From Rhodoferax sp. (GTDB lineage Bacteria; Pseudomonadota; Gammaproteobacteria; Burkholderiales; Burkholderiaceae_C): a DNA stretch of 64,000 nucleotides. The position numbers and the translations under genes are program-made. The notes under the pieces were generated by a model. That model searched no databases. It had not been told where the DNA came from and saw only the letters and a list, made by a program, of their open reading frames with translations. The stretch is taken from the NCBI GenBank assembly GCA_008015235.1, contig SSFF01000004.1, positions 248,001 through 312,000 of the forward strand, written 5' to 3'. Of the stretch, positions 21,376-61,081 are shown in pieces (within the stretch, counting starts at the first letter, position 1; the number at the start of each line of letters is the position of its first letter).

Positions 21376-21431
21376 GTGGTGCCCAGGGCCGGACTCGAAC
21401 CGGCACGCCTTGCGGCGGGGGATTTTGAGTC
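21376..21431. repeat. attL core: 3' portion of tRNA-Leu, identical over 56 bp to 60996-61051
   Basis: gtggtgcccagggccggactcgaaccggcacgccttgcggcgggggattttgagtc present at both sites; flanks differ. Confidence 0.92.
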
Positions 21432-21613: not shown

Positions 21614-22567
21614 ATGCCTGACAAAAAGATGCTTTTCAAGTACCGGTCTTTCTCCGCAAAGACCGTTGAATCATTGGTTTGTGACCGGCTGTATATGGCC
21701 AATCCAGCCGACTTCAATGACCCAATGGACACAAGGCCAGTGGTCGAGTGCGATATTGATCTTGATAGTCTCCAAGAGCTTGTGGCAACGCTTATTGAGC
21801 GACGGCTTAAAGATGAATTGACAAAAGCGGCTGAGAAGATTCGGTACCGAGGTCCAAAGACGTTTGAGCAGATTGATAGACTGAGTCTTGGTCATGTTCA
21901 AAAGACGCTAAATGAAGTGGCGTATAACGCGACCAATCCGGATTATGAGAATGCAGATGAGGCGTCAAAATGGATGCTGGTAAGTCTGCTAGAGAAAGAG
22001 CTGCTACAGCAGTACACAGGTGGTGTGTTCTCGATGGCTGAAAAGGCCAATTGCCCGCTTATGTGGAGCCATTATGGTGACCAGCATCGTGGCCTATGCA
22101 TTGGCTATTCAATAGCCAAAGGATGGCCCTCGAACTTGTACCAGGTCGAATACGGTGGAAGTCGTCTTATCAAAACAAGTTTGATTTCCAGAGTGATTGA
22201 TGGTGACATTTCCGCAAAGTCTGAGCTGGACAAAGCAGTGCTACTTCGTAAGGCCAGAAGTTGGAGTTATGAGCGTGAGTGGCGTCTAATTGGTAAGCGC
22301 GGCCTCATAGACTCAATTTTTGAACTTGAAGATGTTACGTTTGGATTTCGTTGTCCGAGTGAGGTTAAGTGGGCTGTGTTTTCTGCCCTGAGAGACCGTA
22401 GTAGGACTGTGAATTTTTATGAAATTCGTGAAGTCCATGGCAAATTCACACTGAAACGCCACCAATTAGACACTGATGAACTGGGCATCTCCTACCCACG
22501 GAGAGCTCGCGATGCTACTGACGTATTCATACCTAACAATCTCATTGAAGGTCCGTCCGGTATGTAA
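21614..22567 (+). CDS. DUF2971-type protein, prophage cargo between attL and integrase
   Basis: MLFKYRSFSAKTVESLVCDRLYMANPADFNDPMDTRP...CPLMWSHYGDQHRGLCIGY. Confidence 0.75.
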   Translation: MPDKKMLFKYRSFSAKTVESLVCDRLYMANPADFNDPMDTRPVVECDIDLDSLQELVATLIERRLKDELTKAAEKIRYRGPKTFEQIDRLSLGHVQKTLNEVAYNATNPDYENADEASKWMLVSLLEKELLQQYTGGVFSMAEKANCPLMWSHYGDQHRGLCIGYSIAKGWPSNLYQVEYGGSRLIKTSLISRVIDGDISAKSELDKAVLLRKARSWSYEREWRLIGKRGLIDSIFELEDVTFGFRCPSEVKWAVFSALRDRSRTVNFYEIREVHGKFTLKRHQLDTDELGISYPRRARDATDVFIPNNLIEGPSGM

Positions 22568-22568
22568 T

Positions 22569-23594
22569 TCATCGCACGGCCTTGAGCTTCGTGCCCTTCG
22601 TCCGGTAATGTGTGTTGGTGATTTTCTTGTCGCTGTGCTGCAGCAGTTTGCTGGCCTCGTCGTCATCCTCGGCCAGATCGGCGGCACGCTTGCGCATGTC
22701 ACGTAGCCACATGGCGCGAATCTCGGTGGCGATCTTTGGATTGGCCTGGGCGGCCTTCTCCCGCGCGTATTCGTAACGGTCCCGCAGCATGGACTCGGAC
22801 ACAGCCCGTCCGGTATGGGTGGTGAGCAGCATCACACTGTCCACGGTGCCACGGCGCTTGATAAGTGCGGTCAGCACGGGGGAGTCCGCAACCTCGAAGT
22901 AGGCGACCTTGCCCTTCTTGCTGGACTTGAACCGCAACTTCCCATCCACTGGCATACGTACGGTGCGCGCGTCGGTGATGCGCATGCCGGTGGCGCTGGA
23001 TATGTCCATTGCGTCCTTGAGCACCTGGTCAGCGTGGGCGTACACCGCATCGAAGAGCTGGTCCGTCACCTCAAACTGGCGAGCTGCCTCAGGGTTCTTC
23101 CAGTCCTTCACGCCTGCGGCCGGCCAGGGTAGCTGCGTCATGCCCCAGATCCTGGCTTTCCCCCAAAGGATAGACAGGACTGACATTTCGCGGTTTCCCT
23201 GTGTCTTGGCAGAACGCAGGTCGAGGTATTCGCGCATCACCGGCAGGGTGACTTCGTGCCAGGCCATTTGGCCAAAGGCTGCGCCGATGTTCTTCAGCTG
23301 CTTCTTGTAGCTCCGCACCGTGTCCTTGTTCTCGTATGCCGGTGTGGTTTCGCCTTTCTCCCCGCCCAGGTACTCATCCACAAAGCGGTTGATTGCCTCC
23401 TGGATTCGCCCAATGGTTTTCGGCTTTTCGTTGTGCAGCTCATGCCACTTCTCGATGGCAATGGCGTAGTCCGTGCCTAGGCTCACGTCGGGCTTGCCGG
23501 TGCCACGCATGTCGTACCAGTAGGACACCCATACCTGCCCGCCCTTTCCCTTGCGGGTGTGCGAACGCAGACGAGGGTATTTCGATTTCTTCAT
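22569..23594 (-). CDS. int: phage tyrosine integrase
   Basis: ATGMRITDARTVRM (catalytic Arg region), LLQHSDKKITNTHYRTKG (His/Tyr). Confidence 0.9.
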   Translation of the reverse strand: MKKSKYPRLRSHTRKGKGGQVWVSYWYDMRGTGKPDVSLGTDYAIAIEKWHELHNEKPKTIGRIQEAINRFVDEYLGGEKGETTPAYENKDTVRSYKKQLKNIGAAFGQMAWHEVTLPVMREYLDLRSAKTQGNREMSVLSILWGKARIWGMTQLPWPAAGVKDWKNPEAARQFEVTDQLFDAVYAHADQVLKDAMDISSATGMRITDARTVRMPVDGKLRFKSSKKGKVAYFEVADSPVLTALIKRRGTVDSVMLLTTHTGRAVSESMLRDRYEYAREKAAQANPKIATEIRAMWLRDMRKRAADLAEDDDEASKLLQHSDKKITNTHYRTKGTKLKAVR

Positions 23595-29023: not shown

Positions 29024-29163
29024 CAGCGCACCCCGTACAGAAGAACAATGCACACGATGCAGACCACTGCGCCGGCACGCTGGATGATCTTGTGGCCCAA
29101 GGGTGTCTCGCTGCGCCGGTGCACAGGGTTGCCCAGGCGGTCGAAGGCTTGGCGGTAGGTCAT
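29023..29163 (-). CDS. small membrane protein (46 aa)
   Basis: MTYRQAFDRLGNPVHRRSETPLGHKIIQRAGAVVCIVCIVLLYGVR; below ORF-track cutoff; ATGA overlap with the upstream gene's stop. Confidence 0.5.
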   Translation of the reverse strand: MTYRQAFDRLGNPVHRRSETPLGHKIIQRAGAVVCIVCIVLLYGVR

Positions 29164-29324
29164 GCTTCCACCTCATCGCACGTAAGGTGCAGCGCACCCA
29201 GGGCCATCGGCTGGAAAGTCAGCCACTCATCAACAACGAAGCGGCAGCCAATGCGCGCAGCCAGGTGATGAGCAAGAGTGCTCTTGCCCATGCCTTGTGG
29301 AAGCGACAGAATGACCGTTTTTTC
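29160..29324 (-). CDS. small P-loop protein, 5' end unclear
   Basis: EKTVILSLPQGMGKSTLAHHLAARIGCRFVVDEWLTFQPMALGALHL; no clear start codon; overlaps an opposite-strand ORF upstream. Confidence 0.45.
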   Translation of the reverse strand, partial: EKTVILSLPQGMGKSTLAHHLAARIGCRFVVDEWLTFQPMALGALHLTCDEVEA

Positions 29325-29339
29325 AGGGGGAACAAGGCC

Positions 29340-29678
29340 ATGGCCAATACCGAATCCGAACTTCGCCAGCTCATCTTGATCTACTGCCTCGACCGCATGC
29401 CGGATGGCAGCTACGTGGCGCTCAACAGGCGCTACAAGCCGGTAGGCTTCAACAACGGCCCCATGGACTTCGTCAAATACGAAGACTTTCCCGTGCGCTT
29501 CAAGTTCAAACGCGCCCTCAGCGCGCGGCAGATCGCAGCCCTGTCCTACAAGGGAGACACCAGCGCCGAGAGCATATACCTGTACGGAGACGGGTGCATC
29601 CCCACCAGTTCCGATGCTGACTGGGCGGCCTACAGCGCCCGGCTGCAGAAGCTTGCGGGCTACAAGGTAGTTCACTGA
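29340..29678 (+). CDS. hypothetical protein, opposite strand to the early operon (moron candidate)
   Basis: MANTESELRQLILIYCLDRMPDGSYVALNRRYKPVGFNNGPMDFVKYEDFPVRF... Confidence 0.6.
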   Translation: MANTESELRQLILIYCLDRMPDGSYVALNRRYKPVGFNNGPMDFVKYEDFPVRFKFKRALSARQIAALSYKGDTSAESIYLYGDGCIPTSSDADWAAYSARLQKLAGYKVVH

Positions 29679-29683
29679 ACTGC

Positions 29684-29980
29684 TCATGCTGCACCGCCCT
29701 TAAACACCGTAGTGCCTTCAAAGCAGAAAAGAATCTGCCCGCTCTTAACAGCCAGAATGAGTTTTTCGTCGGCCAGCTTCTTGAGCTCGTACATACCAGA
29801 CCACAGCGCATCACACTCTTTGGTGAATGGGTTAGCCCTGCGCTTGCGCATCGCCTCCAGCACGGCTGCGTCTTTGCTGTGGCTCAGGTAGCTGTTCACA
29901 AAGGTCAGCTCCGTGAGTTCTTCGCGGGTCAGATCGCGCTTTTGCTCAAACGCTTGGATATAGCCGGGAGTAGTGCTCAT
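29684..29980 (-). CDS. hypothetical phage early protein
   Basis: MSTTPGYIQAFEQKRDLTREELTELTFVNSYLSHSK... Confidence 0.6.
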   Translation of the reverse strand: MSTTPGYIQAFEQKRDLTREELTELTFVNSYLSHSKDAAVLEAMRKRRANPFTKECDALWSGMYELKKLADEKLILAVKSGQILFCFEGTTVFKGGAA

Positions 29981-30360: not shown

Positions 30361-30389
30361 ATATTAGTCGGACTAACATTTAGTGTCAA
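30361..30389 (-). promoter_or_regulatory. PL-like early promoter: TTGACA-N17-TAATAT on minus strand
   Basis: Reverse complement of 30361-30389 reads TTGACACTAAATGTTAGTCCGACTAATAT; overlaps operator. Confidence 0.8.
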
Positions 30390-30440
30390 GTCAGACTAAT
30401 AATGCGCTTAATTTTTGTATAAATACAACAGTATGACTAA
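30364..30440. promoter_or_regulatory. OL-like operator cluster
   Basis: TTAGTCGGACTAA (30364-30376), CAAGTCAGACTAA (30387-30399), ACAGTATGACTAA (30428-30440). Confidence 0.75.
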
Positions 30441-30444
30441 TAAA

Positions 30445-30466
30445 AAAGCCACCCGAAGGTGGCTTT
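30445..30466. terminator. bidirectional stem-loop terminator at end of ietS-like gene
   Basis: AAAGCCACC-CGAA-GGTGGCTTT. Confidence 0.8.
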
Positions 30467-30484: not shown

Positions 30485-32791
30485 CTATATCTGCACGGGA
30501 ACCTGCACAGGAAGGTTGGAGCGCACCCAGTTGGTGGCGTTCAGTGCCTGAATGCCTTGTGAGTGGACATTGGGGTCGCCATCCAGTGAACGAAGCGTCA
30601 CGATGATGGCTACGCGCATTGCATCGTCCGGCTTCAGTTCAAAAGCACGTTGCACCATCTTTGCCTGCAGTGCCCAGGCGTCGCCACCCTGTATTCCTTC
30701 GGCAAACACCCTGCGCTGCGTCTTCACGGGGGACCATTTGCCACCATGCTCCACCTGCTGTATTTCGAGCCCGGTAGAACCCTTTTCACCATCCCATGGA
30801 ACGCGGCCGTTAAATCCACCATCTTCCACAAAGCCCCAGTTCAGTTCCAGGTTGGCCCGAATGTATTCGGCTCCATAGTTGCCATTCAGTGGCGGTGCGT
30901 ATGCCGCGGTAATGATCACTTCGCCGCGAAATTTCCCACCAGGAAGCAGTGCCTGGGGTACAGGGTAGGGGGTCTTTCTCCAGCGCATGCGCCCAGGCGT
31001 TAAGTGGGCCTCAAATGCCAGCGTGAAGCTGTCGTCCCGGTCGTACAGCACATCCAGCACATTGGATGGCAGGCCGGACCCGTGGTACTTGCGTTCCACC
31101 GGCGTGAACTCCGGGCTGCTGATCTGTGCCGCGTGGATGAGCAGTGCCTTCACCAGGTGGGGTGAAGGTGGTAGCGCAGCGTTGCCCTGCAGTGCTGCCC
31201 AGGTGTGGGCTGCCATGGCTGATGCCAATGGCGCTGCATAGCTCGTGCCGTAGCCATGGCCTATTTCATTTCCAGCGGTAAGCACTGCGATGCTGGTGTT
31301 ACCGGGTTTCCATGGGGCTTCCGGGTTTCCTGTGTGGTGGACATTTCCACCAAAGTGAACGATGTCCGGTTTGGGTGTAAACACAGGGCCCATGCCTCGT
31401 CTGCTGTAGGGGGCAGGCTCCCAGGCTCTCACTACCGTGTCAGCTGCATCTGCATGCGCCACAGAGCCTACAGTCAGCGCACGCACGGAATCGGCCGGGC
31501 TGGATATACGGTCTTCTCCACCAGCCAGTTCCGTGGGCCATGCCCGGCGAGGGTCTATTAAATGGTTCCCCGCAGCCACCACAAACAGCACCTGGAAGCG
31601 GTCGCTGAGCTCGTCCAATTTTTGGGCAAAGTCGCTGAATATGTGGTCAGAGCACGGTATCACTGAGCCGAGCGACAAATTCCACACTTTGATGTCTGGT
31701 CGGTTGGTGACTGCAGTTTCCAGATCCAGCATGAGGTCGCTGATTTGCGACGTCGAGGATTTCAGCCCAGTAACGTTGTGCACCAGGCAGGAGTAATCAG
31801 GGAAGTTGGGGTTCAGCCGAGAGCCTCCTGCGACAAGAGAGGCCACATTGCTGCCATGCTCGAAGTTCGTGTCCGGCGGCAGCACAAAGACTTCATTGCT
31901 GGTGACCCATCCTTGCAGCGTAGCGTGTCCCGGTGCTACCCCCGTATCAAACACGGCAACAGTGGGCAAGCCCGCTGTGGGAGCAGGGAAGTGCAGTGTT
32001 GGTGGGATGACCATTGCGGGCTGCCCTGTTGCCACCGGGCCTACCAGCTGGTCTGCGCTCAAGGTTCGAACTGCTGGGTGGTCTAGCAGATCATCCAAAC
32101 GCTCGTCACTTACGGCGTCAAGGTTGGGAAGCAGGATGACTTCCGACATCCCCAGTGTGATCGTGCGGGTGTGAATATTGAGCCGCGCCAGTTGCTCGTA
32201 CATGGCCGCGCGGGTAGCAATATCAATCTCCCGGTCGTAAAAGCGATGGGGGCGCAAGATGGCTTGCCCACGTTCACGTAGTGCGAGTGTCCCTTCGGGG
32301 TTCCTGCGGGCTCTACTCCAGGGCTCAATTCGCAGCAGCGTGCTCAAATTTGCCTTCAGCTTTCCATTGGGCCCATCAGCAATCAGGGCCCGTAGCTTGG
32401 TAAGCGCTGCAGCATTGGCACCCACCAGCATCTCGTCGATATTGGCGTGTCCAGCGGGTTGCAGGTTGGCGGCCTGGAGAAGTTTGAGCGGGCGGTGGCT
32501 TTTCGCTATGCCATCTTCGCGCAAGCGCAATACGGTACCAACGGGAAGGTTGGGGTAGCGTTCCAGGGTGGGCCCCAGTATTGCGCTTGTAATGTCCAGT
32601 GTTTCGTTGAGCGCAGTGCAGAATGCCTGGTCTACAGTCACCAGCTCTTTGCTTGGCCCTTGCGATCCGCCGTGCCCCTCGAGGTCATTAGGGCCGTGCG
32701 CAATGACAATAAACGGGTTCTCTGTATTGGGCGAGAGGTTACTTGGGTTGCCGTTTCTTCTTTCCTGGTTCTGCTTTTTCTTGGATGCCAT
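30485..32791 (-). CDS. ietS: S8 subtilisin-like serine protease, IetS-like
   Basis: Asp GLPTVAVFDTGVAPGHA, His HGSNVASLVAGG, Ser HGYGTSYAAPLASAMAAH; pairs with AAA+ ATPase. Confidence 0.85.
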   Translation of the reverse strand: MASKKKQNQERRNGNPSNLSPNTENPFIVIAHGPNDLEGHGGSQGPSKELVTVDQAFCTALNETLDITSAILGPTLERYPNLPVGTVLRLREDGIAKSHRPLKLLQAANLQPAGHANIDEMLVGANAAALTKLRALIADGPNGKLKANLSTLLRIEPWSRARRNPEGTLALRERGQAILRPHRFYDREIDIATRAAMYEQLARLNIHTRTITLGMSEVILLPNLDAVSDERLDDLLDHPAVRTLSADQLVGPVATGQPAMVIPPTLHFPAPTAGLPTVAVFDTGVAPGHATLQGWVTSNEVFVLPPDTNFEHGSNVASLVAGGSRLNPNFPDYSCLVHNVTGLKSSTSQISDLMLDLETAVTNRPDIKVWNLSLGSVIPCSDHIFSDFAQKLDELSDRFQVLFVVAAGNHLIDPRRAWPTELAGGEDRISSPADSVRALTVGSVAHADAADTVVRAWEPAPYSRRGMGPVFTPKPDIVHFGGNVHHTGNPEAPWKPGNTSIAVLTAGNEIGHGYGTSYAAPLASAMAAHTWAALQGNAALPPSPHLVKALLIHAAQISSPEFTPVERKYHGSGLPSNVLDVLYDRDDSFTLAFEAHLTPGRMRWRKTPYPVPQALLPGGKFRGEVIITAAYAPPLNGNYGAEYIRANLELNWGFVEDGGFNGRVPWDGEKGSTGLEIQQVEHGGKWSPVKTQRRVFAEGIQGGDAWALQAKMVQRAFELKPDDAMRVAIIVTLRSLDGDPNVHSQGIQALNATNWVRSNLPVQVPVQI

Positions 32792-33938
32792 CCCTGCTTC
32801 CTTTGTCTTCGTTTAAAAGGTTCTGTACCTGCCGTAATGGCAGATCGTACAAGGCTGCAAGCGCACGAAAAGTGAAGTGCGACTGCGCCCATGCTCTGAG
32901 CCAACGAATTTCTTGTTCTGTAGTGGTTAACCGCTCGCCCTTTGCCAGTGCCAAGGTCAACCCCAGTCTGCGCAGCAAGACAAGTTTTTGAGCCCGTGCC
33001 TGCCCTGCAAGCACAGCGGAACGCTTGGCGTCCAGACTCACGTGTTCAATGGTTGCGCCTGTCGCACCCTCTGAGAGGCTGGCCAGTTCTTTCCAGTCCA
33101 ATTCATCGGGGGCATAGCTGCCAAGTAACTTGCGCCACAGCCCCTCGCGCAGCGCAGTATCTGGTATGGGCATGGGTATGTGGAAAGGAAACCGCCGGTC
33201 AATGGCCGGATCCAGCAATTGCTCATGGTTCGTAGAGGCTACCAGCACGGTGCTGTCTGGCAGGGCATCCATGTTTTGCAGCAGGGCTATCACCACGCGC
33301 TGCAGTTCACCGATGTCGCGCTCATTCCCACGTGCGCCGGCAAGTGCGTCAAATTCGTCCAGGAACAGCACACAGGGCAGTTGCTGCGCGTAGTCGAATA
33401 CTCGGCGCAGGTTTCGGCTGGTCTGGCCTAGGAGGCTGCTCACCAGCGTATCGCATCGCACGGTCAGCAGCGGAAGCTTCAGGCGGGCGGCTATCCAGCG
33501 TGCAGTTTGCGTTTTCCCGGTTCCCGGCGGGCCATATATCAAAACCCTGTTGGGCATGGCCGCGCCAGCACGTTGCAGGGCATCGTGGTGCTCAACGCAT
33601 TGGATGAACTCGAGTAGCCGATTTTGTATGGCGTCCGGCAGCAGCACTTCGCTGGTTTCCAGCGTGGGCTGGCTGTAGTCCACGGTATTGAGGCGGCTGT
33701 CGTTGTCAGTTGGCATCTGCCCCAGCATGTGGCCATGCCCGGCACCTTGGGCGCTGGCCACAGCCATGGGGGCACGTGCCAAGCGCTCACGGATCATGCG
33801 TGCCTGCTGTTTCTCGCCATCGCTTTCCAGCTTGTCCGCCAGCAGGCCGGCGTAGCTGGTGGCCATGCTGGCATTCGCCTTGAGAGCGCCGTCCAGAATC
33901 TTCAGGACTTCGGAGAGGTGTTGCACGTGTTGATACAA
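32739..33938 (-). CDS. ietA: AAA+ ATPase, IetA-like
   Basis: VLIYGPPGTGKTQTARWIAARL Walker A, CVLFLDEFDAL Walker B, DRRFPFHIPMP; 53-bp overlap with protease gene; start codon (TTG) uncertain. Confidence 0.82.
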   Translation of the reverse strand: MYQHVQHLSEVLKILDGALKANASMATSYAGLLADKLESDGEKQQARMIRERLARAPMAVASAQGAGHGHMLGQMPTDNDSRLNTVDYSQPTLETSEVLLPDAIQNRLLEFIQCVEHHDALQRAGAAMPNRVLIYGPPGTGKTQTARWIAARLKLPLLTVRCDTLVSSLLGQTSRNLRRVFDYAQQLPCVLFLDEFDALAGARGNERDIGELQRVVIALLQNMDALPDSTVLVASTNHEQLLDPAIDRRFPFHIPMPIPDTALREGLWRKLLGSYAPDELDWKELASLSEGATGATIEHVSLDAKRSAVLAGQARAQKLVLLRRLGLTLALAKGERLTTTEQEIRWLRAWAQSHFTFRALAALYDLPLRQVQNLLNEDKGSRDGIQEKAEPGKKKRQPK

Positions 33939-33999
33939 AAAATTGGGGTTTTGTATCAGTTTACCCCATTCCTGTATCGAAAAACTGCTGTTTTGTATC
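33931..33999. promoter_or_regulatory. four phased TGTATC/GATACA sites at ietA start
   Basis: GATACA 33932; TGTATC 33952, 33973, 33994; TGATACAAAA...TTTTGTATCA inverted repeat 33931-33958. Confidence 0.55.
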
Positions 34000-34001
34000 G
34001 C

Positions 34002-34829
34002 TTATTGGCTTGCTTGTCTCACTGCGTCAAGTAACTGCCCCATGGTCTCAGGAGCATCTGGCAGGTCATATAGCTGGGTTTCACCACCTGGCATGTCGGC
34101 TACACGCATGAGGGTGAATCCGTCCAGAAGTTTCCCGCCCACGAGTTGGCGGTAGCTGGCTTGCAGTTTAGCCTCGGCCGGACTGGGCTGGCTTACAGCG
34201 TCGGAATTCTCCAGTAGTCCGATGTGGAATAGGGCGATGTTGCTTGTCATGGGCTGCCCCTGGTCGTCATGCTTTGTCAGCCAGCATTCACCCGCCAAAA
34301 AGGCCGGCTTGTAGAACCTGTCCAGGTCCGTTTTGAAGGTCTTGCACTCGATCAGTACTTTGGGTGCGCCGTCAGCGCCTAGAACCGCTATGTCCGCGAT
34401 GTGCTTGTTTTCAAGGCGATATTCCTCGCGCACTTGGCACTGCGGGCCGGCAATGTTTTTGATGGTCTCCACCATGACCCGCTTCAGTGCGGGCCGCATT
34501 CGCAGGTTTTCAACAGCAGCAGTTTGCGGGGAGACAACAAATACAGGGGCGTTTTGCTTCACCGACTTGGACAGCTCTTCGATCTCAGATGCGAGCCGCT
34601 GGCTAAAGTCGCCGACTGAAATGCCAATTAGCGTTGCAATTTTTGACGCGAAATCGCGGTTGATGGCCATTCGACCACCAATTCGTTGGGACAGGGCGCT
34701 TTGGCTGTATCCAAGTTTGAACGCAGCTTCTTCCTGCCTGATCCCCGTCTTTTCCTGCCAAGCATGAAACAGCGGTCGTAGTCGATCGGCATCAGCTTTT
34801 TGCTCTGGGGTGATTGGTCTTGTGGGCAT
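34002..34829 (-). CDS. HTH transcriptional repressor (CI position) with C-terminal PD-(D/E)XK nuclease-like domain
   Basis: HTH IRQEEAAFKLGYSQSALSQRIGGRMAINRDFASKIATLIG; then HIADIAVLGADGAPKVLIECKTFK. Confidence 0.65.
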   Translation of the reverse strand: MPTRPITPEQKADADRLRPLFHAWQEKTGIRQEEAAFKLGYSQSALSQRIGGRMAINRDFASKIATLIGISVGDFSQRLASEIEELSKSVKQNAPVFVVSPQTAAVENLRMRPALKRVMVETIKNIAGPQCQVREEYRLENKHIADIAVLGADGAPKVLIECKTFKTDLDRFYKPAFLAGECWLTKHDDQGQPMTSNIALFHIGLLENSDAVSQPSPAEAKLQASYRQLVGGKLLDGFTLMRVADMPGGETQLYDLPDAPETMGQLLDAVRQASQ

Positions 34830-34843
34830 ATCGCAGAACCGTA

Positions 34844-34906
34844 TTAGTCACGGGGGCTTGTGGCAATTAGTCGGACTGTCATATACTTAGATTTAAGTCG
34901 GACTAA
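34844..34906. promoter_or_regulatory. OR-like operator cluster between repressor and Cro-like genes
   Basis: TTAGTC half-site (34844-34849), TTAGTCGGACTGT (34867-34879), TAAGTCGGACTAA (34894-34906). Confidence 0.75.
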
Positions 34907-34916
34907 TATTTGCATC

Positions 34917-35165
34917 ATGAACACCATCAAAACCATCCGAGAGCGCCTTGGCGTCACCCAGGCGGTGCTGGCGCAGGCTGTGGGTCGTACGCAGGGAAAC
35001 GTAGCGTTCTACGAGCGTGGCCAAAGCGTGCCATCCGACGTAGCCAAGCGTCTGATCGTGTTTGCATCTGAACGTGGTGTCGTTCTGTCCTACGAAGACA
35101 TCTACGGCCCAGCCCTCGCAAACAGTGCGCAAGCGGCTACCGAAACCGTAGTGCAGGGGGTGTGA
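34917..35165 (+). CDS. Cro-like XRE-family regulator
   Basis: MNTIKTIRERLGVTQAVLAQAVGRTQGNVAFYERGQSVPSDVAKRLI. Confidence 0.85.
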   Translation: MNTIKTIRERLGVTQAVLAQAVGRTQGNVAFYERGQSVPSDVAKRLIVFASERGVVLSYEDIYGPALANSAQAATETVVQGV

Positions 35166-35170
35166 TGCGC

Positions 35171-35443
35171 TTAGGTCTCGATCTTTGTCTCGGTGTAGCT
35201 GCAGGCATCGCAGCCAAATGTGACGTCCAGCCCACCCATGTCGCCAAACGTTTTGTTGGGTGCGCTTTTGATCTTGCGCCAGCGTCCGATCGCGCAGCTT
35301 GGGCAAGTAGGCAGTTGCGTCGTGCTGCCAAGGCGCGTCTCCAGCACTGCAATGCGGCGCTCCAGCTCCGGCACCTTGCGGGCAGCGGCAACCACTTGCT
35401 GCCATTCCACCAGTTTTTTCAGTGATTCGAGTAGGCCCACCAT
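35171..35443 (-). CDS. small zinc-ribbon-like protein
   Basis: LPTCPSCAIGRWRKIKSAPNKTFGDMGGLDVTFGCDACSYTE. Confidence 0.6.
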   Translation of the reverse strand: MVGLLESLKKLVEWQQVVAAARKVPELERRIAVLETRLGSTTQLPTCPSCAIGRWRKIKSAPNKTFGDMGGLDVTFGCDACSYTETKIET

Positions 35444-35699
35444 GAAAACTCCCTTCGAGAAATTGAATGTGACCCATTGTGATGCTGTAGGCGTCAGCAA
35501 GGTGCGCCTGCACCATCAGTCCATCCAGGTGTGCCACTTGAGCAACGGCAATACGGTGTTGACCTGCAGCGAGTCGGGCCGTGATCCGGTGCTTTTCGAA
35601 TTGACGCCGTCCCAGCGCCAGCATTTCATCGGCCTTCTTTCTCCAGCCCTCGCCAACACCGCACAACCAGCTACTGAAAACGTAGCGCAGGGGGCCTGA
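35442..35699 (+). CDS. hypothetical phage protein with repeat-derived C-terminus
   Basis: MKTPFEKLNVTHCDAVGVSKVRLHHQSIQVCHLSNGNTVLT...SPALANTAQPATENVAQGA. Confidence 0.55.
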   Translation: MKTPFEKLNVTHCDAVGVSKVRLHHQSIQVCHLSNGNTVLTCSESGRDPVLFELTPSQRQHFIGLLSPALANTAQPATENVAQGA

Positions 35700-35707
35700 T
35701 GCAATCG

Positions 35708-35923
35708 CTAGTGCTCTGCTTCGCCCTCTTCGGGATTGCGGGCTCGAAAGCTCACGCTCACCTGCAGGCTGGATTCGCCCGCCGTCAGCACGCCACCAGT
35801 GTGCTGGGCTGCCTCCAGCGTCACATCTGCCCATTGGTTGCACAGCTCGGTCAATGCCTGCGCAATGGCCAGTTCGATTCTTTCCTTCGGGATGTTCGCA
35901 AGGGGGTGATTGGTGTTTGACAT
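35708..35923 (-). CDS. hypothetical phage protein
   Basis: MSNTNHPLANIPKERIELAIAQALTELCNQWADVTLEAAQHTGG... Confidence 0.55.
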   Translation of the reverse strand: MSNTNHPLANIPKERIELAIAQALTELCNQWADVTLEAAQHTGGVLTAGESSLQVSVSFRARNPEEGEAEH

Positions 35924-36046
35924 AGCTTTTATCAGTGTAGCCCGCGTAAACATTGCGCAGCCAGCTACCGAAAACGTAGCGAAGGTGGTGTGAGATGAAG
36001 GATCGCAAACCAATCGCGATTGACGCGCCTGCTGACCACGAGCAGG

Positions 36047-36289
36047 TTATTGATACGGTACGTCGCTCTGCGCGCTGCCATCTCCCATGTACAGACGCAG
36101 AAGTGGCCCGCGCTCCGTGTATTCCCAGACCCGAGCTGTTACCACGTATTGGCGTCCGCCAAAGCGCACTAGGTCGCCTTGTGCGGGCGGTACTTGCAAG
36201 CCTGGCCAGAAGTTGGGGACGGTAGTGCCATTCTTGCGAATCAGATCCAGGTCGTCTGGTGAGAACGACATCACGACTTGCAGTTCCAT
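36047..36289 (-). CDS. hypothetical phage protein
   Basis: MELQVVMSFSPDDLDLIRKNGTTVPNFWPGLQVPPAQGDLVRFGGRQYVVTARVWEYTERG. Confidence 0.6.
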   Translation of the reverse strand: MELQVVMSFSPDDLDLIRKNGTTVPNFWPGLQVPPAQGDLVRFGGRQYVVTARVWEYTERGPLLRLYMGDGSAQSDVPYQ

Positions 36290-36360
36290 TTTGGGTAACC
36301 CCCTGGTGAAGTTGGTGTGCTGGGAATCCATCAGTGTAGCCAGCGGGGTTGCCCGCCAGT

Positions 36361-36573
36361 TCAGGAGTGGTGCACATGCGTGAAGCCCTCCCATTTCAGT
36401 ACCAGGGGCTCAAACGTGCCCAGGTAACCGCCAAAGCTGCGGCGCGCTTTTTCCATCGTTTCGTGGCTCGGAGCACTTTGGGGTTGTCTCGCTCCGTGTC
36501 TTTGGGCCTGCCCGGCTTCTTGCTGGGCGGGCTGCTTTTTGTTTTCTGACTGATTCGCAGGGAGTGTGTTCAT
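36361..36573 (-). CDS. hypothetical phage protein
   Basis: MNTLPANQSENKKQPAQQEAGQ...; divergent from CII-like gene. Confidence 0.45.
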   Translation of the reverse strand: MNTLPANQSENKKQPAQQEAGQAQRHGARQPQSAPSHETMEKARRSFGGYLGTFEPLVLKWEGFTHVHHS

Positions 36574-37264
36574 GAGAGCAAGTGTGGCCCTTCGCGGCAT
36601 TTCAGAAAACGGCGAATCCATTGGCGCCGGCAACATCGACCCAGCCACCATGGCCCCGCTCGATGCGGCCTACCACACGGCCCACCAGTACAAGGGTGGG
36701 GTGCATGCCCTGGCCCTGAGCATGGGGGTGTCCGGCAACGTGTTGCAGAACAAGGTCAACCCCAACAACACCACGCACCACCTGACGCTGGCCGAAGCCG
36801 TGGCCATGATGGACCTGGCCGACAACGATGCCATCTTGATGTCAATGGCTGCGCACCGTGGCTACGACCTGATGCAGACCATCCCGGTCAACACCGGCAA
36901 CCCCGTGTCCCTGTATTGGCAGGCAGCAGCTGCACAGGCGGACTTCATGCAGGCTGCATCCGATGCGCTTGAGCATGGCGCTACGACCAATGCGCTGCGC
37001 AACGCACGCAACCGGGCAGTCGATGCCATGGCCCACATGAACAACCTACTGGCAGCCCTCGCTGCCACCGTCCCCACAGCACCCAAAGAGGTGCAACAAC
37101 CCCGTCCCCCATCAATGGGGAAAGGCCACGAAATGACGCAGCGAAACACTTCAACTCGTTCACCTCATGGGGCCACCCCCGGCTTTGGGTCCTTCCGCAA
37201 AGAGCGGCGTGAGGGTAATTCGAACCCCTCGCGGCGTGTAGATAGTGAGGCTGGAAGTTACTGA
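36572..37264 (+). CDS. CII-like phage regulatory protein
   Basis: YHTAHQYKGGVHALALSMGVSGNVLQNKVNPNNTTHHLTLAEAVAMMDLADNDAIL. Confidence 0.75.
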   Translation: MRASVALRGISENGESIGAGNIDPATMAPLDAAYHTAHQYKGGVHALALSMGVSGNVLQNKVNPNNTTHHLTLAEAVAMMDLADNDAILMSMAAHRGYDLMQTIPVNTGNPVSLYWQAAAAQADFMQAASDALEHGATTNALRNARNRAVDAMAHMNNLLAALAATVPTAPKEVQQPRPPSMGKGHEMTQRNTSTRSPHGATPGFGSFRKERREGNSNPSRRVDSEAGSY

Positions 37265-59117: not shown

Positions 59118-60413
59118 TCACGCCTTCGCCACCGGCAAGGCATCCCAGCTGGTGGTGTAGGCGGGGGTCAGCAGCTGCTGGCGCAACACCCAGGTGCGCT
59201 CTGCGCGCCTTGTTCCGGCGCTGGCCAGCGTGATCGTGCCCCGGCCGAAGCGGTCGTTGATCCTGTCCATGGCCGCCATCAGCTCGCCGCCCTGGTCCGG
59301 CGCGGCATCCAGCTGCAGTTCCAGTTGCTCCACGCTGTCATCATTCAGGTCCAGCAGCATGACCCCGGCCTTGATGTAGTCAAACCCCGGTCGGTAGATC
59401 GCCCGCAGGCCCAGCACTGCGGCGTGCACCAGGTCTTGCGTGTTGGCCGTTGGGCGGCGCAGCGGCACGGATGTGCTGCGGCTGTAGTGCGGTGGCGGCC
59501 GGAATGGGCTGGTGTGGATGAACACGCACACCTGGCCAGCCAAGCTGCTCTGGCGTCGTAGCTTGCTGGCTGCCCTCGCAGCAAACTCAGTCACGGCCTG
59601 GATGAGGTCGTCCAGACCACGCACAGGCCGGCCGAAGCTGCGGGTGTGGGCAATTTCCTGCTTGGGTGGTGGTGCGTCCTCCAGGCGAATGCAGGACTGG
59701 CCTTGTAGCTCGCGCACAGTGCGCTCCAGCACCACGCTCCAGCGTCTGCGCACTGTGGCTGGGTCGAGCTGGGCAAATTGCAGCGCGTTGGTGATTCCGG
59801 CCGCTGCCAGTTGTTTGCTGATGCGCCTGCCCACGCCCCACACGTCCCCCACCTCGGTGGCGGCAAGTACAGCGTCCAGGTCGGAGGCGGGCAGGGCGCC
59901 CAGGTTGCACACGCGCGCCAACTCGGCCGGGTAGCTGCCTGGTTTGCGGTCGGCGCTCTTGGCCACGTGGTTGGCCAGCTTGGCCAGCGTCTTGGTCGGG
60001 GCGATACCTATGCCGGTGGGGATGCCGGTGTGCTGCAGGATGCGCGTGCGCATGGTCTGTGCCCGCCTGGTCAGGTCTCCACGGATTCCGGCCATGTCCA
60101 CAAAGCACTCGTCAATGCTGTAAATCTCCTGGTTGTGGCCCAGCCCGGCGGCCGTGCACATCATCCGGTCGCTCATGTCGCCGTAGAGGGTGAAGTTCGC
60201 ACTGAGGGCCACCACGCCGTACACCTCGGCCAGCTCCCGGCACTCAAACCACGGCTGGCCCATCTTGATGCCCAGTTCCTTGGCCTCGTTCGATCTGGAA
60301 ATGGCGCAGCCGTCGTTGTTCGACAGCACCACCACCGGGTGCCGTTTCAGCGACGGACGAAAAGCCCGCTCGCAGCTGACGTAGAAGTTGTTGCCATCGA
60401 CCAGTGCGAACAT
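59118..60413 (-). CDS. umuC: DNA polymerase V catalytic subunit (prophage-borne)
   Basis: MFALVDGNNFYVSCERAFRPSLKRHPVVVLSNNDGCAISRSNEAKELGIKMG. Confidence 0.95.
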   Translation of the reverse strand: MFALVDGNNFYVSCERAFRPSLKRHPVVVLSNNDGCAISRSNEAKELGIKMGQPWFECRELAEVYGVVALSANFTLYGDMSDRMMCTAAGLGHNQEIYSIDECFVDMAGIRGDLTRRAQTMRTRILQHTGIPTGIGIAPTKTLAKLANHVAKSADRKPGSYPAELARVCNLGALPASDLDAVLAATEVGDVWGVGRRISKQLAAAGITNALQFAQLDPATVRRRWSVVLERTVRELQGQSCIRLEDAPPPKQEIAHTRSFGRPVRGLDDLIQAVTEFAARAASKLRRQSSLAGQVCVFIHTSPFRPPPHYSRSTSVPLRRPTANTQDLVHAAVLGLRAIYRPGFDYIKAGVMLLDLNDDSVEQLELQLDAAPDQGGELMAAMDRINDRFGRGTITLASAGTRRAERTWVLRQQLLTPAYTTSWDALPVAKA

Positions 60414-60420
60414 GGCGCTC

Positions 60421-60861
60421 TCATTGCCTGAATCGCTTGATGGTGGCGGTGACCACGCCGCAAATCGTCAGGGTCTGGCCGTCGCGGAAGATGATGGGGG
60501 CAAAGGTCTTGTTGCCGGCACGCAACTGCACCGTGCCACGCGAGCGCCAGAACTGTTTGACGGTGAAGTCGCCGTCCACCTCGGCAATCACGATGTCCCC
60601 ATGGTTGGCCTGCAGCGCCCGGTCGCACACCAGGATGTCACCGTCGAAGATTCCAAAGTCCACCATCGAAGTCCCGCTGGCCTGCAGCATGAAGGTGGCA
60701 TTGGGGTGGCTTATGAGCAGCTCGTTCAGGTCATGGCGTTTGACAGCGAAGTCGGCAGCTGGGGACGGAAAGCCCGCTGGCACTTTCCCCTCCACCCATG
60801 GCAACAGCAGTGCTGGGCCGGGGATGAAGGGTGTCGCATCTGGCGGCAATATACTGTTCAT
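60421..60861 (-). CDS. umuD: UmuD-like S24 autoprotease (prophage-borne)
   Basis: FMLQASGTSMVDFGIFDGDILVCDRALQANHGDIVIAEVDGDFTVKQF. Confidence 0.93.
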   Translation of the reverse strand: MNSILPPDATPFIPGPALLLPWVEGKVPAGFPSPAADFAVKRHDLNELLISHPNATFMLQASGTSMVDFGIFDGDILVCDRALQANHGDIVIAEVDGDFTVKQFWRSRGTVQLRAGNKTFAPIIFRDGQTLTICGVVTATIKRFRQ

Positions 60862-60871
60862 TCATACAGTA
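60852..60871 (-). promoter_or_regulatory. LexA (SOS) box overlapping umuD start
   Basis: TACTGTATGAATGAACAGTA on minus strand matches CTGT-N8-ACAG. Confidence 0.85.
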
Positions 60872-60995
60872 TATGCTTGCTTTTCCCCAAGTGTCTACTT
60901 GGCGTCAATCAGCTAAATGCGGAAACGGTGCGGAACCGAATGCGGAAACAAAAAGGCCTTGCTACTATCTTCATAGCGGCAAGGCCTTTAATTGC

Positions 60996-61051
60996 GTGGT
61001 GCCCAGGGCCGGACTCGAACCGGCACGCCTTGCGGCGGGGGATTTTGAGTC
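60996..61051. repeat. attR core (56 bp identical to attL core)
   Basis: See attL. Confidence 0.92.
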
Positions 61052-61081
61052 CCCTGAGTCTACCAATTTCACCACCTGGGC
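60997..61081 (-). tRNA. tRNA-Leu (anticodon CAA), intact copy forming attR
   Basis: GCCCAGGTGGTGAAATTGGTAGACTCAGGGGACTCAAAATCCCCCGCCGCAAGGCGTGCCGGTTCGAGTCCGGCCCTGGGCACCA; acceptor, variable arm and T arm all present. Confidence 0.95.

Follow-up and report, generated by a model that had tools for sequence, protein, structure and literature searches.

An apparently mobile IetAS ATPase–subtilase pair with a conserved promoter-like iteron region in the lambda-like immunity region of a Rhodoferax prophage

The window, i.e., the whole stretch of 64,000 nucleotides of Rhodoferax sp. DNA that was analyzed, contains a prophage with a full-length, genuine IetAS module, consisting of an AAA+ ATPase gene (IetA) and an S8 subtilase gene (IetS), directly behind its repressor gene (Table 1). 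Judged by its distribution, the module is mobile cargo in the immunity region, with a resemblance to rexAB of lambda that is positional only. Comparison of IetAS loci further indicates that the pairs of this clade bring their own conserved promoter-like control region, marked by iterons with an exact spacing of 21 bp. The IetAS family and its carriage by prophages are already known. The iteron region is possibly undescribed, since no description of it was found in the available portions of the IetAS literature, a body of text outside which the original IetAS paper falls, and its novelty is not certain.

Table 1. Features of the prophage and its immunity region in window coordinates
Feature	Position	Strand	Details
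attL-like direct repeat	21376–21431		56 bp; copy of the tRNA-Leu end; exact match to 60996–61051
Integrase gene, left prophage end	22569–23594	-	phrog_7244 integrase, E = 3e-9
PL-like promoter	30361–30389	-	TTGACA-17-TAATAT; leftward, strong; overlaps operators
OL-like operator pair	30364–30399		30364–30376, 30387–30399; weak third copy 30428–30440
Intrinsic terminator 3' of IetS	30445–30466	-	9-bp stem, T-rich tail
IetS	30485–32791	-	S8 subtilase, 768 aa; triad D282/H312/S517
IetA	32739–33926	-	AAA+ ATPase, 395 aa; GTG start; predicted C-terminal helix-turn-helix
Five iterons YGRNACR, exact 21-bp spacing	33931–34021	- and +	34021–34015, 34000–33994, 33979–33973, 33958–33952 (-); 33931–33937 (+); period analysis
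-10-like TAAACT box, IetAS promoter region	33958–33963	-	hexamer recurrence upstream of IetA
Hybrid repressor	34002–34829	-	lambda CI-like N-domain (aa 4–90) and non-S24 C-domain
PR-like promoter	34860–34887	+	rightward; overlaps operators
OR-like operator pair	34867–34906		34867–34879, 34894–34906
Cro-like HTH protein	34917–35165	+	PF13560 and PF01381 above cut-off
CII/CP76-like regulator	36566–37264	+	PF06892, E = 3e-27; phrog_101
attR-like repeat	60996–61051		inside tRNA-Leu (60997–61081)

Identity of the IetAS pair

Both proteins exceed the NCBIfam equivalog cut-offs of their families (IetS, NF042956, 982.8 bits with a cut-off of 900; IetA, NF042959, 559.6 bits with a cut-off of 510) and match the PADLOC IetAS models (PDLC02196 and PDLC02197) over almost their full length, with E values of 6e-261 and 2e-142, in the order IetS, IetA. 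The only Pfam families found on the pair are of the AAA type and Peptidase_S8, and no solved structure resembling IetS was found by sequence. The two genes are adjacent on the same strand, with the ATPase gene first and the subtilase gene second, which is the arrangement of IetAS, and they share 53 bp (32739–32791). A similar overlap is present in Acidovorax delafieldii, the pair of which (locus L038) is the nearest relative, with protein identities of 88% and 81%. The Walker A motif of IetA (GPPGTGKT, residues 132–139) and its Walker B motif (LFLDEFD, from residue 187) are both intact. With values of dN/dS relative to the A. delafieldii pair of about 0.045 for IetA and about 0.07 for IetS, both genes are evidently under purifying selection.

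The preliminary description had recognized overlapping leftward genes for an AAA+ ATPase and an S8 protease, with Walker motifs and an Asp/His/Ser triad, all of which are present as described, and its assignment of the pair to IetAS is borne out by the HMM comparisons. It had placed the locus at 30485–33938; the genes, motifs, and context within these bounds stand, whereas the start of IetA has to be moved from TTG at 33938 to GTG at 33926. The former codon lies upstream of the conserved start, and the GTG, TTG, or ATG starts of the orthologs align with the latter.

The prophage and its immunity region

The prophage is about 39.7 kb long, siphovirus-like, and apparently complete, with genes for terminase, portal, a head protease–capsid fusion, major tail protein, and tape measure, and its ends are 56-bp att repeats in tRNA-Leu. 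Sites resembling TTAGTCNGACTAA lie over both the PL-like and the PR-like promoters, with 0 and 2 mismatches in the two members of the OL-like pair and 2 and 1 in those of the OR-like pair, in order of position. Since 11 such sites are present in the whole window and at least 11 were found in 6 of 100 shuffles, their total is not clearly above chance, and the case for operators is made by their clustering over both promoters rather than by their number. IetAS lies between the two operator pairs, 75 bp behind the repressor gene and on its strand, and is followed by a terminator hairpin. Thus the prophage setting, the flanking operator clusters, the position directly downstream of the repressor, and the strong terminator at the end of the pair, all of them noticed previously, were found again.

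Several other genes of the prophage deserve mention. Genes for UmuC and a UmuD-like protein are located directly inside attR (59118–60413 and 60430–60876, both on the minus strand), and in A. delafieldii umuDC is found directly upstream of the IetAS cassette. A DUF2971 protein, possibly a cargo gene, is encoded in the interval between attL and the integrase gene (21614–22567), and a small P-loop protein (29160–29687; GMGKSTLAHHLAARIG, phrog_14685-like) in the leftward operon. The interval between Cro and CII (35171–36394) contains open frames on the minus strand (35171–35440, 35708–35922, and 36047–36394), and minus-strand frames are likewise present between Cro and CII in two related prophages (L127 and L136).

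The hybrid repressor

The N-terminal domain of the repressor matches the DNA-binding domain of lambda CI (E = 2.5e-10). Pfam finds no Peptidase_S24 match in this protein, whereas S24 is present in seven of the eight repressors of related prophages that were examined. The C-terminal domain carries a nuclease-like motif (D147..E162-x-K164), shows the order alpha-beta-beta-beta in a single-sequence model of low confidence (pLDDT 44, too low to support a search by fold), and has a weak similarity, below the cut-off, to PF13588 (HsdR N-terminal domains, E = 0.0072). These features suggest a restriction-endonuclease-like domain, possibly with a PD-(D/E)XK-like fold. A search of phages, plasmids, and 400 order-level genomes for this domain returned the window's own copy only. 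The only other trace found, 58 C-terminal residues with 38% identity, precedes IetA in A. delafieldii, where DNA homology with the window (75.5% over 3.57 kb) extends from the repressor tail through IetS; because this homology spans both, the repressor tail and IetAS must have moved together at least once. The linkage in A. delafieldii may represent either a functional unit or what is left of a related immunity region. A frame in another locus (L005), considered as a full-length relative of the repressor, contains stops and gives an unconvincing alignment, and was rejected. Independently of IetAS, a CI-like repressor that has no self-cleaving domain is an unusual feature of prophage control and lends itself to experiment.

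Distribution of IetAS

A scan with the prophage primase identified 78 related viral contigs. In 50 of them the sequence extends beyond the homologous primase by more than 3.5 kb on its upstream side, and neither IetA, IetS, nor the repressor C-domain was detected at E = 1e-3 in any of these 50. The preliminary description had named absence of the locus from the immunity region of related prophages as an outcome that would count against it, and with IetAS found in 0 of 50 contigs the pair is not a conserved element of this region. In such relatives the slot behind the repressor is occupied by other genes, for example one for an Ig/cadherin-like protein (L094). Other contexts do contain IetAS: it is found in the right arm of a Rac-like phage of E. 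coli, and 78 of 5426 E. coli genomes have it; a Pf inovirus carries it at its end; and in Acidovorax it is located on a plasmid, beside Shedu and between copies of IS21. Its occurrence above the cut-off in 401 family genomes is sporadic (nine genomes), and no close relatives of IetA alone or of the repressor alone were found in viral contigs. AAA–subtilisin operons are already on record for prophages of several genera from a previous survey (PMC3339403). The absence from related prophages, taken together with the variety of contexts (phage arm, inovirus, plasmid, and island), argues that IetAS is mobile cargo. The absence from the 50 contigs alone would leave a rex-like role possible, as accessory genes in this slot may vary.

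On plasmid p1-T1 (L188, 9476–10585), the Shedu nuclease gene directly follows IetAS and copies of IS21 flank them, possibly forming a defense cassette. The record of PfAC08 (OR818368; L046, 216–3526) has the labels of the two proteins swapped, the ATPase being named IetS and the peptidase IetA.

The control region upstream of IetA

Of 16 loci, 8 have the hexamer TAAACT, similar to a -10 box, in the DNA preceding IetA, and related hexamers are found in most of the others. No good -35 box was seen in this promoter region, and the promoter scan made no call there. Five iterons are spaced along the same region, with the first copy located inside the end of the repressor gene. Averaged over 15 loci, the self-match amounts to 0.408 for a lag of 42 and 0.388 for a lag of 21, both above the maximum of 0.359 reached at any lag by 3000 sets of random windows taken from the same loci, and none of 2000 shuffles equaled the value at lag 21 or lag 42. 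Triplet periodicity of coding DNA was considered as the source of these two lags and rejected, since the scores at other multiples of three are far below theirs and none of the random-window sets from these loci attains them. Two loci (L188 and L159) are near copies of two others (L052 and L054), and a class-level search for an independent test set yielded no further IetA at E = 1e-90. Because distant families of IetA are mostly without the signal at lag 21, the claim of an iteron array is limited to the clade of IetAS to which the window pair belongs. The control region recurs in IetAS loci of unrelated contexts, in which no such repressor was detected adjacent to the pair, and no repressor operator was found within the iteron stretch. 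A divergent IetA (43%; L160, about 2610–2700) is preceded by 20-bp tandem repeats (gtgaaaaaatcttcactttt), perhaps an analogous operator array.

The C-terminal part of IetA is predicted to form three helices (336–346, 353–360, and 364–375), with pLDDT of about 90 except for the last residues, and in IetA orthologs, including those of distant families, the C terminus is a helix-turn-helix-like segment. Three distant IetAs have a Pfam HTH match above the cut-off; in the window's own clade this match is weak (best E = 0.0036, L040). Antitoxins commonly bind their own promoters and autoregulate, and the predicted fold and the repeats are consistent with a model in which IetA may bind the iterons and autoregulate the operon. 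This model of autoregulation by an AAA+ antitoxin is directly testable on 91 bp of defined DNA.

Proposed mechanism and alternatives

We consider it probable, with considerable reservation, that the pair is composed of an autoregulating AAA+ antitoxin and a protease that it restrains, the latter being freed by infection or by loss of the element. IetS would be a subtilase of the cytoplasm that is toxic unless IetA binds and restrains it. The C-terminal helix-turn-helix of IetA would bind the iterons spaced by 21 bp over the promoter of IetA, making the operon autoregulated. When another phage infects, or when the element is lost, IetA or its supply would be disturbed and IetS in this way freed; it would then cleave proteins of the cell or of the phage, so that phage growth would be stopped or cells that have lost the prophage would be killed. 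The order of the genes, with a putative antitoxin first, a putative toxin second, and an overlap between them, is that of type II toxin–antitoxin systems. In Salmonella genomic island 1 (SGI1), SgiA neutralizes SgiT, with the subtilase being the toxin (PMC5006074), and in mycoplasmas an AAA-ATPase similarly neutralizes its toxic subtilisin-like partner (PMC8562856). Carriage of IetAS by a Pf phage is associated with phage resistance, by a mechanism stated in 2025 to be unknown (PMC11878078). Counting against the proposed mechanism, plasmid-free cells were not killed when the SGI1 operon was under its own promoter (PMC5006074). The weak Pfam HTH match in the window's own clade, the missing -35 box, the lack of a promoter call at the site, and the absence of the 21-bp array from more distant IetA families count against it as well.

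Integrated prophages are already fairly stable, which makes it doubtful, although still conceivable, that IetAS mainly stabilizes the prophage by killing the cells that lose it, with phage defense being secondary. Such a role would agree with the position of the antitoxin gene before the toxin gene, and related pairs raise the stability of plasmids and islands (Yamamoto 2009, cited in PMC8562856; PMC5006074), whereas the lack of post-segregational killing by the SGI1 operon from its own promoter speaks against it here too (PMC5006074).

We regard as unlikely a Rex-like arrangement, in which the pair would be cotranscribed with the repressor from the maintenance promoter and would serve only in superinfection exclusion by the lysogen. 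The pair does lie closely behind the repressor gene on its strand, with no terminator-like site between them, and the terminator after IetS is placed immediately ahead of the PL-like promoter. However, the pair was absent from the 50 related contigs and has its own conserved promoter-like iteron region, also where no such repressor was detected. As IetA is provided with this region, expression coupled to the repressor in the manner of rexAB would not be needed, although read-through from the repressor gene is possible, since no terminator-like site was found before IetA.

It is quite improbable that the nuclease-like C-domain of the repressor and IetAS constitute one functional unit, in which a non-self-cleaving repressor would be controlled by, or would signal to, the AAA+ protease; if true, such a unit would be an immunity and defense switch driven by a protease and not by SOS. 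Very improbable is the related idea of an induction switch, in which the neighboring repressor would be cleaved or removed by the protease of the pair, leading to non-SOS induction. Two observations fit it: the repressor has no Peptidase_S24, unlike seven of eight relatives examined, and in A. delafieldii a remnant of its C-domain stands before IetA, where DNA homology extends from the repressor tail to IetS. Against it, IetAS is also disseminated where this repressor is absent, and with a single other occurrence of the C-domain found, the co-occurrence extends to two loci only. Least probable is a decaying defense pair that is now an inert passenger, as its motifs are intact and dN/dS is low for both genes, despite the sporadic occurrence in 9 of 401 family genomes.

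Comparison with known systems

The window pair shares with IetAS/IteAS (NF042959 and NF042956) the equivalog scores, gene order, overlap, and Walker and S8 motifs. It differs in occupying an immunity slot on the side of the repressor, and its clade-specific 21-bp iteron promoter is not mentioned in those parts of the family literature that were available. SgiAT of SGI1 likewise consists of an AAA-ATPase gene followed by a subtilase gene, and its toxin–antitoxin behavior has been demonstrated (PMC5006074); the SgiAT genes are 20 bp apart rather than overlapping, and they reside on a mobilizable island. The A132/T133 pair of mycoplasma has the same AAA-ATPase–subtilisin architecture, with a toxic protease that the ATPase neutralizes, and is chromosomal, without the prophage context of the window pair (PMC8562856).

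The pairs of Escherichia phage vB_EcoS-683R6 (ON470595) and of E. coli chromosomes are about 61% identical to the window pair in IetA and about 45% in IetS. The former is prophage-borne, as is the window pair, although it follows the replication genes of the right arm and is not located beside the repressor, with an annotated gap between its genes instead of an overlap. In lambda, rexAB is likewise found between the repressor gene and the OL/PL-like region, on the strand of the repressor, but it belongs to unrelated protein families: the window pair has no RexA or RexB homology in Pfam, has its own promoter-like region, and is not conserved in related prophages. Finally, while it is devoid of the S24 self-cleaving C-terminal domain of lambda CI, the window repressor shares with it the N-terminal DNA-binding domain of the CI type.
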